Assembly: GCA_031271865.1 (NCBI GenBank)
Contig: JAISUW010000054.1
Span: 1 to 64,000 of the forward strand
Origin: Oscillospiraceae bacterium
GTDB taxonomy: Bacteria; Bacillota; Clostridia; Oscillospirales; Acutalibacteraceae
Length of the DNA stretch: 64,000 bases
Direction of reading: 5' to 3'
The notes under the pieces were generated by a model. The model made no database searches. It had not been told where the DNA came from and was given only the letters and a program-made list of their open reading frames with translations. Positions within the stretch are counted from its first letter, which is position 1. Each line of letters opens with the position of its first letter. This document shows, piece after piece, positions 40,026-46,444 of the stretch. A program made the translations under genes and the position numbers.

Positions 40026-40781
40026 CTAAAAGCCAAGGGCGCTTTTTACGGCTTCGGCGAGGATTTCGCCGACGGCTCCTGCTTTTTGTTTGGCCCAGCG
40101 CAGGGGGGCGGCTAAAGTGTCTATTACATTCCAGATGCCGTCCATGTACGGCAATAGGAAGCGGTCTATGAAAGCAATACCTGTGCCGGCGAAAGTGCGG
40201 CGGCCTAAGGCTTTGTTCAGTGCCGCAGTCGCGTTGTCTATCGCTTCGGCAGAAGGGGCGGGGGTGTTATAAAGCGCTTCGGCGGCGGACAGTGCGGTGC
40301 GTATATCTTTAATATAGGAATCGGTGTAACGCGTGTTGGGATTGTTTGCGATGGAACGGGCACGGTCTATGGACGCTTTGAGCTTTGTGCCGTCCAAAAG
40401 ACGGAATTGTGCTTTCTCTGTCAGCGCAGAACCGAATTGCAGCATTGCTGTATATTCATCGGCCTTTCCGGTCTCTACCGTGAGCAGAAGCATCTGCCTG
40501 CCGGGGATGTCATAGGCTGTGATGCCGTCGCCGGTAAATTTTCCTAAGTCGGAATGCGGGATGGCATAGAGATTGTTCAGGGAATCCATAAGAAGCCAAG
40601 CGTAGCTTTTCGCTTCGCCTGTATATGTAAAGCATAGTTCTACCCGGCCCCAATTGCCGCGGTTCACAGTAGGGGCGGGGAGTGTGGGATTGACAGATTC
40701 AGCCATTGCCGACGGTAAGAGAGCCATTGACCCGCACCAAATGGCGAGTACGAGAGCAATAGCTCTGACCCATTTCTTCAT
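40026..40781 (-). CDS. Secreted protein with helical FIVAR-like region, unknown function
   Basis: Signal peptide MKKWVRAIALVLAIWCGSMALLPSAMAE; LKASIDRARSIANNPNTRYTDSYIKDIRTALSAAEALYN. Confidence 0.6.
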   Translation of the reverse strand: MKKWVRAIALVLAIWCGSMALLPSAMAESVNPTLPAPTVNRGNWGRVELCFTYTGEAKSYAWLLMDSLNNLYAIPHSDLGKFTGDGITAYDIPGRQMLLLTVETGKADEYTAMLQFGSALTEKAQFRLLDGTKLKASIDRARSIANNPNTRYTDSYIKDIRTALSAAEALYNTPAPSAEAIDNATAALNKALGRRTFAGTGIAFIDRFLLPYMDGIWNVIDTLAAPLRWAKQKAGAVGEILAEAVKSALGF

Positions 40782-42037
40782 GCCGAACCCTCCCGGTCTC
40801 TGCTTGAAGCCGATTTGTGCAGTTCCTCTGTCGCTAAGGCAAGCTTCGTTACGGAGAACTCCGTTCCCTGCGGATAGCAGTAGAGGGTGTCGTCGCGGGT
40901 GTTTAAGTCCACGCAGTCCCCTTTTCCCTTGTATTCAAATTCCACATGGCAGGCGATGAGTTCTTGCGGTTTCCAACGGACGGTATGCTCCTGCCCTTGG
41001 GAAGTGACGTTGAGGGTGAATCCTTCCATATCGTGCGTTAGGGTGCCTAAACCTAAATCTATGAAGCGCTTTGCGTTCGGCAGGGAGTCGACCCGCACGA
41101 CAGCGGAAAAGCTGTAGGTACCATCGTCGACCTCTTTGCGGACATTGGCTCGTTGCCATTCGTACCAGTCCGGGATGTGGGAAAACGCCGTGACTTCCCC
41201 TTCCGGGGAGATAGTCCGCAAACGGCCGTCTTCCTCCATGAGCCACCGTCTTCCGCAGGCAGAACAGAAAAGCTCTGCCCCGGCGGAACCCATCTTATAC
41301 TCCGTACCGCAGTGCGGGCATTGGTACAGAATCTTGTGCAAACCCTCGGCGCGGGTCTTGGATTTGACAAGGATGCCTTTCTCTTTCTGCCAAGCGTAGT
41401 CGTCATAGGTGAGGGCTTCGGAGATGCGGCGGTGTATCTCTTCCGTTGGGAGGCTTTGCGTCTCTTCCGCGGTCAGCAAAAGACGTATCTCCGCTTCTTG
41501 GTGTTTGGCTGAGCGGCTTTTCGGATTCCAGAACGGGGAATCAATGTGATTGCCGTGCATGAGGAGCGTCACAATCGGTACTTTCAGTACCCGCGCCAAT
41601 TTGGCGACGGATAAAGGTATTTCCGACTGCGTTCCGCACAGGGAATATCTTGCCTCCGGGAACAGCACGCACATATCTCCGTTTTGTATCACCTGCTTCA
41701 TATTGCGAACCAAATGCAGCGAGGATGTGAACTTGCGTACCCCAAAACAACCGACTGCACGCAAGAGCCATTCGCTGATTAGGAAGCCGTCAATAGCCAC
41801 TACATAGTTTGCTCGCTGCGGAAAGGTTGCGGCCGTCATTACCGAAAAATCTAAAAACGCATTGTGGTTGCATAACAGTAAATACGGTGCTTTCAATCCT
41901 TTCATGCCGTACTTGCGGATTTTTATCCGCTTCAGCCATATCGTCGGAAAACAGAGCAGCCAAACGATAGGCCGCAGGATGTTCCATTGCCGGTTCGGTT
42001 TCTTCCGGAAGTCAAAGCGCTCGTAGTCACCTATCAT
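40778..42037 (-). CDS. PlsC-like 1-acylglycerol-3-phosphate acyltransferase with C-terminal zinc-ribbon region
   Basis: LLCNHNAFLDF (acyltransferase H-x4-D-like), FPEARYS; QCPHCGTEYKMGSAGAELFCSACGRRW. Confidence 0.78.
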   Translation of the reverse strand: MIGDYERFDFRKKPNRQWNILRPIVWLLCFPTIWLKRIKIRKYGMKGLKAPYLLLCNHNAFLDFSVMTAATFPQRANYVVAIDGFLISEWLLRAVGCFGVRKFTSSLHLVRNMKQVIQNGDMCVLFPEARYSLCGTQSEIPLSVAKLARVLKVPIVTLLMHGNHIDSPFWNPKSRSAKHQEAEIRLLLTAEETQSLPTEEIHRRISEALTYDDYAWQKEKGILVKSKTRAEGLHKILYQCPHCGTEYKMGSAGAELFCSACGRRWLMEEDGRLRTISPEGEVTAFSHIPDWYEWQRANVRKEVDDGTYSFSAVVRVDSLPNAKRFIDLGLGTLTHDMEGFTLNVTSQGQEHTVRWKPQELIACHVEFEYKGKGDCVDLNTRDDTLYCYPQGTEFSVTKLALATEELHKSASSRDREGSA

Positions 42038-42199
42038 CTCGGCCTCCTTGTGGATTTCAATTGGCGGATTCTGCTTCTGTCTAAGCGTTTCTGATGTTAT
42101 TATATCACTTTCGGCAGAAAAATGCAAGGTTCAATCCCTCTTATGCCTATGGCTTGTTCCGTAAATTTTGCGCTTCGACCGTTTTTTTGCTCTTCTTGC

Positions 42200-42228
42200 T
42201 TGACTTTCTTCCCAAAATGTGCTATTAT
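42200..42228 (+). promoter_or_regulatory. SigA-type promoter for the leader ORF and corA
   Basis: TTGACT, 17-nt spacer, TATTAT. Confidence 0.72.
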
Positions 42229-42297
42229 GATAAATAGAGTTGCGTATACTATATTGGATGGGTTGCTTCAATTCAATCCCAAAGGAGGTGGCGCGCC

Positions 42298-42372
42298 GTG
42301 AGTACTGACCCCGGCGGTAACCCGCGAAGACGAGTCCCTAATATTACTGTGCGCCGTGGGGGATCGAATTGA
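42298..42372 (+). CDS. Putative MgtL-like regulatory leader peptide MSTDPGGNPRRRVPNITVRRGGSN
   Basis: GTG start 9 nt after AAAGGAGG; 24 codons; located between promoter and corA; not in the supplied ORF track. Confidence 0.5.
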   Translation: MSTDPGGNPRRRVPNITVRRGGSN

Positions 42373-42411
42373 ATTCAATTCAATTTCAGCACAGGCGCGA
42401 AAGGAGAGCCT

Positions 42412-43464
42412 ATGCTGAAATTCTACAAAACTGCAGAGGGAGTCATGCACGAACTGCCGCAGCCTATCGAGGGCTGCTGGATTTCCCTCACGGAACCCAC
42501 ATCGGAAGAGCTGAACTTGCTCCAAGAGAAAACCGGCGTTGACCACGACTTCATTCGAGCCGCCTTAGACGAGGAAGAAGCCTCACGTATTGAAAGCGAT
42601 GATGGGCAGACGCTAATCGTTATCGATTTTCCCGTCGAAGAAAAAGACACCCCGCATGAAACCGCAGCCGCAAAACGTGAGATGCGGGAAATGAAGCAGC
42701 ATCTGCGCAACCGTAGCGGCAGCAAGACCACAAAGAAACAGGTAGCACAAGGCAAGCATCGGGCTTCTGCCGGTGCGGCGAATTACTATACGATGCCCAT
42801 GAGCATGATTATCACGCATGATTATGTGATTACAGTGTCGTTGACCTCCAACCCGATTACGGACGACTTCGCCCGCGGGGCTATTAAGAACGTCAATACT
42901 GCATTTAAGACGCAGTTTGTGTTCTATTTATTGCTGCGCGTGGCTAGCTACTATCTGCGTTATCTGAAACAAATTGACCGTCTTTCCAATACTGTCGAGC
43001 GGAAATTGCATACCTCCATGCGCAATGAGGAACTGATTCAGCTTCTGAGCCTGGAGAAATCCTTGGTTTACTTCTCCACTTCCCTCAAATCCACAGAGAA
43101 AGTGCTGGATAAGCTTCTGCGCAAACGGCAAGTGCGCTTTTATGACGAGGACCAAGACTTGCTGGAAGATGTTACTGTTGAGTTCCGCCAGGCGGTGGAG
43201 ATGAGCGAAATCTATTCCTCCATTCTTTCCGGGACGATGGATGCCTTTGCCTCCATTATTTCCAACAACCTGAATATTGTCATGAAAGTGCTGTCGGTCA
43301 TTACCATTGTTATGGCTGTTCCTACGATGGTGTTCAGTTTTTATGGAATGAATACCGATGACTTGCTTCCATTGGCAGGGCAGCCTTGGCTGATTTTGGT
43401 TATCTCCTTGGCAGCTTCCATCGCAGCCGCAATCTACCTTACCAAGCGAAAGTATACGAGCTGA
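42412..43464 (+). CDS. corA: CorA family magnesium transporter
   Basis: C-terminal FYGMNT signature between two TMs, CorA-like helical stalk. Confidence 0.88.
   Translation: MLKFYKTAEGVMHELPQPIEGCWISLTEPTSEELNLLQEKTGVDHDFIRAALDEEEASRIESDDGQTLIVIDFPVEEKDTPHETAAAKREMREMKQHLRNRSGSKTTKKQVAQGKHRASAGAANYYTMPMSMIITHDYVITVSLTSNPITDDFARGAIKNVNTAFKTQFVFYLLLRVASYYLRYLKQIDRLSNTVERKLHTSMRNEELIQLLSLEKSLVYFSTSLKSTEKVLDKLLRKRQVRFYDEDQDLLEDVTVEFRQAVEMSEIYSSILSGTMDAFASIISNNLNIVMKVLSVITIVMAVPTMVFSFYGMNTDDLLPLAGQPWLILVISLAASIAAAIYLTKRKYTS

Positions 43465-43952: not shown

Positions 43953-46444
<2,492 letters not shown>

Follow-up and report, generated by a model that had tools for sequence, protein, structure and literature searches.

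Conserved short ORFs with an early acidic-proline motif are candidate Mg2+-sensing leader peptides before corA and mgtE genes of Clostridia

The corA gene in the window (the whole stretch of 64,000 nucleotides of an Oscillospiraceae bacterium that was analysed) is preceded by a short ORF. Judged by comparison with related genomes, this ORF is one of a large family of putative leader peptides of gut Clostridia that is conserved but has so far escaped annotation. The comparative data make it close to certain that this leader is a selected, translated regulatory ORF, and Mg2+ is likely the signal that it reads. The sensing step, either ribosome destabilisation or slow Asp-Pro decoding, and the RNA switch described below are in our view probable in the form proposed. 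The leader is probably a Mg2+ sensor of the ribosome-destabilisation kind that is convergent with MgtL and MgtQ. A search confined to the open-access literature turned up no earlier description of leaders of this kind ahead of corA or mgtE in Bacillota.

An earlier note made from the sequence alone had described a MgtL-like leader peptide at this site, and its promoter, Shine–Dalgarno (SD) sequence, GTG-initiated ORF and downstream corA were all found in the sequence as claimed (Table 1). The promoter is the best of three promoter-like matches, where shuffled sequence yields 0.5, and the leader stop is separated from the corA start by 39 nt. The CorA encoded here is the only one found in the source genome. 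Both neighbours, an acyltransferase gene (40778-42127) and ATP synthase genes (from 43530), are on the strand opposite to corA, so that the leader and corA seem to be transcribed as a separate unit. Among the ATP synthase genes, a URO-D family gene (45389-46444, minus strand) lies between the gamma and beta genes and overlaps the beta gene by four bases. An intrinsic terminator was sought in the window leader and none was found. An outer stem (42267-42280 with 42358-42373, TTCAATTCAATCCC and GGGGGATCGAATTGAA) encloses the entire leader ORF, and TTCAATTC recurs before corA in the window and could give additional alternative pairings.

Table 1. Features of the corA leader region in the window.
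Feature	Position	Strand	Remarks
Sigma-70-type promoter TTGACT-N17-TATTAT	42200..42228	+	10/12 matches, extended TG
-35 element TTGACT	42200-42205	+	from sequence; 17-nt spacer to -10
-10 element TATTAT	42223-42228	+	from sequence
Leader-ORF SD AAAGGAGGT	42281..42289	+	from sequence; an SD was a search requirement for every counted leader
RNA segment 1 (leader SD spacer/start)	42290..42304	+	pairs with segment 2; 1:2 = -18.3 kcal/mol
Leader ORF, peptide MSTDPGGNPRRRVPNITVRRGGSN	42298..42372	+	GTG 42298, TGA 42370-42372, 24 codons
Conserved Asp-Pro, codons 4-5 (GAC CCC)	42307..42312	+	where the ribosome is proposed to be destabilised or to decode slowly
RNA segment 2 (3' part of leader ORF)	42344..42355	+	pairs with 1 or 3; 2:3 = -13.0 kcal/mol
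RNA segment 3 (spacer)	42382..42396	+	pairs with 2 or 4
RNA segment 4 (corA start region)	42408..42422	+	3:4 = -20.3 kcal/mol
corA, CorA-type Mg2+ transporter	42412..43464	+	350 aa, ATG 42412; PF01544, E=6e-49

A DNA search for the window leader within the genus gave only short low-complexity matches and no homologous leader. Homologues of corA were gathered from relatives, the order, the class, the phylum and seven named records, and their leaders were scanned for an SD-preceded ORF of 8-60 codons with Asp/Glu-Pro within codons 2-5. The order-level set comprises leaders from the relatives, the order and the seven named records; one of the latter (L037, Oscillospiraceae bacterium Po218_bin118) appears to be the genus relative G007, whose leader sequence is identical. 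The motif ORF was present in 87 of 127 order-level corA leaders (e.g. MSPDP, MSADP, MNPDP), compared with just 2 of 298 control genes (20 regions and the window; Fisher p=3e-56). It recurred in 28 of 99 corA leaders elsewhere in the class (p=1e-16), a comparison with the control that is not fully like for like since the SD filter was slightly wider (GGTGA and AGGTG added) for the class and phylum sets than for the order set and the control. In the phylum set 12 of 44 leaders carried it, and variants in these two outer sets included MDADP and MDCDP. The motif rule was framed after the first order-level examples and was then applied unchanged to the class and phylum sets; the scan tallies related genomes and not independent origins. 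The conserved leaders are mostly 13-31 codons long. The strict motif is missing from roughly one in two of the corA leaders studied, and near variants are common among these (MSADGN, MSEDGG, MDGDGG, MDSGP, MPDAAD, MVPER).

Selection acts on the encoded peptide and mainly on its N-terminus. For 17 non-overlapping leader pairs of equal length, pN/pS was 0.57 in frame versus 1.08 and 1.20 in the other two frames, with 0.13 for codons 2-8 and 0.79 beyond codon 8. The pairs were taken from motif-selected leaders, a choice that favours codons 4-5 and leaves the remainder of the frame unaffected. These ratios point to strong purifying selection on codons 2-8. The acidic-Pro motif also shifts by whole codons while the frame is kept (MSPDP, MDPAP, MDDP, MTPEPEP), as is predicted for a selected peptide N-terminus.

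A strict-pattern search of whole-genome DNA that was blind to corA asked for an SD, a start codon, a constrained codon 2 and GACCCT at codons 4-5. It gave 17 matches in 278 genomes of the order, and 15 of these were corA leaders. In 292 genomes of the class, corA leaders were among the 31 matches listed, about half of which were unrelated long genes or other matches. Two of the leaders, L344 (MSPDPDSKPKG...) and L346 (MDFDPLPSN...), precede MgtE genes (PF01769), and a third, L340 (MDGDPANK...), precedes a gene for a PRC/MgtE_N/CBS protein. CorA and MgtE are unrelated families of Mg2+ transporters that, going by these matches, share such putative leaders. At L341 (position 239) and L356 (position 1515, reverse complement) the motif lies within a CNNM/CorC protein, at its very N-terminus; these two proteins start with MDADP and MDPDP and have a strong SD before them, which looks as though the sensor motif were now carried by the transporter.

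Several known systems can be compared with the clostridial leaders. According to the passage of PMC11282234 that cites Chadani 2017, EPDP in MgtL triggers Mg2+-dependent ribosome destabilisation, and the ribosome dissociates at low Mg2+. The clostridial leaders resemble MgtL in being short ORFs before a Mg2+ transporter gene, with acidic-Pro in codons 2-5, basic residues after it and rare codons, and leader translation is in both cases expected to oppose expression of the transporter. They differ from it in that they precede corA in another phylum, whereas mgtA encodes a P-type ATPase, and in that the corA start region is paired here, whereas mgtA is controlled by Rho-dependent termination. 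The earlier note had matched M1, D4, P5, P9 and R10-12 of the window peptide to MgtL, which is correct when checked against the E. coli mgtL sequence (record L290), and had left homology or convergence open. Basic residues are indeed frequent after Asp-Pro in corA leaders, but RRR and the extra prolines of MgtL are not conserved among them. P9-RRR in particular is not kept among the relatives: RRR occurs only in the nearest one (L002), one position later. At codon level, where the note had wanted DPxxxPRRR checked, the start, the acidic-Pro and the reading frame are conserved and the PRRR part is not. With PRRR lost among relatives and the gene being corA and not mgtA, membership of the MgtL family was rejected; homology is unsupported and convergence is the better reading. 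The leader-peptide reading had been made dependent on codon-level conservation among corA leaders. Such conservation was found, so the reading survived, and it is further supported by the near-absence of such ORFs from control leaders and by their recurrence before MgtE.

In Salmonella, acidic codons of mgtQ act similarly before mgtB, with a layout of 1:2 and 3:4 versus 2:3 (PMC8092293). By analogy, the clostridial leaders may share with MgtQ an acidic N-terminus, which in MgtQ impedes its own translation, the alternation of 1:2 plus 3:4 with 2:3 and control of transporter initiation. MgtQ is, however, intercistronic, has eight codons and precedes mgtB, whereas here a 5' leader with a conserved Asp-Pro precedes a transporter gene of another family. 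CorL of E. coli and Salmonella is likewise a short ORF before corA, and the more it is translated, the less corA is expressed; in E. coli, corL translation opposes corA (PMC11552253). Unlike the clostridial leaders, CorL has few acidic or Pro residues and acts in a Rho-dependent manner (PMC11552253). The M-box (ykoK, RF00380) may be analogous in giving Mg2+ control of transporter genes in Bacillota, but it is a pure RNA aptamer, unlike the clostridial leader. Neither the window nor the leader by itself had a match of note in Rfam, and none to RF00380, so that identity as an M-box was rejected, and neither an M-box match nor an MgtE was found in the source genome. M-box matches occurred in few genomes of the order (7/149), which is in keeping with use of another Mg2+ sensor.

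The corA leaders also appear to carry an attenuator-like RNA in which pairings 1:2 and 3:4 compete with 2:3. In the window, the corA SD (42402-42406) falls in the loop of the 3:4 hairpin and the corA start codon in the stem, and 2:3 has a perfect core (42347-42352 with 42389-42394). Among the leaders, which are related so that the counts are not independent, the pairing ranked in the top 5% against shuffles of the same sequence for 1:2 in 56 of 87, for 2:3 in 39 of 73 and for 3:4 in 29 of 73; 2:3 and 3:4 overlap in segment 3 in 60 of 73. Ten aligned leaders from one clade contain compensatory changes in 1:2 (A-U to G-C) and in 2:3 (G-C to A-U, C-G to G-C, C-G to U-A), and partner sliding clearly reduces pairing in the same alignment. 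A crude footprint model gave no difference in mean accessibility of the corA SD between early drop-off (0.40) and a ribosome at the stop (0.42), and in the minimum-energy fold of the window 3:4 persists under both ribosome constraints. Since this equilibrium folding yields no switch on average or in the window, we infer the switching step; in the window, where 3:4 (the stronger pairing) outweighs 2:3 and persists, a switch would be kinetic or work otherwise.

We propose the following mechanism. With ample Mg2+, the ribosome would get past Asp-Pro, reach the stop and cover segment 2, upon which 3:4 would form and corA translation would be kept down. At low Mg2+, a ribosome with a short acidic-Pro nascent chain would slow or drop off at codons 4-6 and mask segment 1, so that 2:3 would form and the corA start would be freed. 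In a few relatives (L070, L072, L073, L077, L133) the leader ORF runs past the corA start in another frame, and there full leader translation would occlude corA directly, with the same sign. At sequence level, the mechanism draws on the conserved SD, start and N-terminal acidic-Pro, on purifying selection and on the three pairings. The leaders also show two marks of the ribosome-destabilisation type: a Mg2+ transporter gene is preceded by a short ORF that has an SD to itself, and the ORF has early acidic residues with Pro, conserved at codon level. Against the mechanism, EPDP is a stronger motif than one acidic-Pro.

Ribosome destabilisation alone also does not explain a codon constraint around the motif. 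The key Pro codon is CCT in 57/87 (order), 23/28 (class) and 7/12 (phylum) of the leaders, against a background of 17%. In the order-level corA leaders, Ser after Asp-Pro is encoded by AGT in 64 of 78 cases (12% expected from early codons) and Arg by CGA in 55 of 91 (8% expected). AGT and CGA appear in either order, and their bias is gone further along the ORF. TTA and ATA are likewise raised after Asp-Pro, but the comparably rare TCA and AGG are not, and a general rare-codon account was therefore ruled out. The bias could reflect slow codons at the decisive step, an input from tRNA modification or an RNA motif. An alternative is thus that sensing is codon-specific, through slow decoding of CCU (and AGU, CGA) when Mg2+-dependent tRNA modification (TrmD m1G37) falls, followed by the same downstream switch. 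Such an m1G37 model has been proposed for the Pro codons CCC/CCU of mgtL (PMC6335274). It would account for the strong over-representation at and after the key Pro, and E. coli mgtL likewise uses CCT, CGA, AGA and TTA. The Asp codon of the motif is nevertheless biased to GAC, which is not rare, and TCA and AGG are unenriched. AGU and CGA are not known to be among the m1G37 codons, which also counts against this alternative. Moreover, an acidic residue, in some leaders Glu, is kept, whereas a pure Pro-codon model needs none. Codon-specific sensing seems unlikely.

It is less likely still, and quite improbable, that a metal- or ligand-binding riboswitch overlaps the ORF and that the peptide is incidental. 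The strong RNA structure with its covariation and the synonymous-site constraint just past Asp-Pro would fit this, but no Rfam family (M-box included) matched, selection at amino-acid level is confined to the frame, and SD and start are kept while the motif moves by whole codons (MSPDP, MDPAP, MDDP). A leader that gauges how well Asp-Pro can be translated (through the state of EF-P/YfmR, proline or ribosome stress in general), with Mg2+ as one input only, would agree with B. subtilis, where reporters with Asp-Pro stall if EF-P is missing and YfmR relieves the stall (PMC11381351). We give this marginally less weight than the riboswitch, since the leaders precede Mg2+ transporters of two unrelated families and contain few Pro codons and no Pro runs. 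A chance ORF without function, conceivable for so short an ORF first seen in one sequence, is already refuted by the rarity in controls, pN/pS, the recurrence in class and phylum and the outcome of the strict-pattern search in the order.

Sensing of Mg2+ by the ribosome through acidic-Pro leaders is already known from enterobacteria. If the proposed mechanism is true, its counterpart before corA and mgtE in Clostridia would make this a widespread and probably repeatedly evolved way of sensing Mg2+. It would also account for how genomes that lack an M-box respond to Mg2+, and offer more than 100 natural variants to probe what destabilises ribosomes. More tentatively, and with some doubt on our part, acidic-Pro leaders may be a general Mg2+ sensor of Bacillota that many lineages use in place of the M-box, that has been taken up by two or more unrelated transporter families (CorA and MgtE) and that uses a CCT/AGT/CGA codon signal besides the peptide, with a sensing step that possibly runs via tRNA modification, unlike the known enterobacterial systems.
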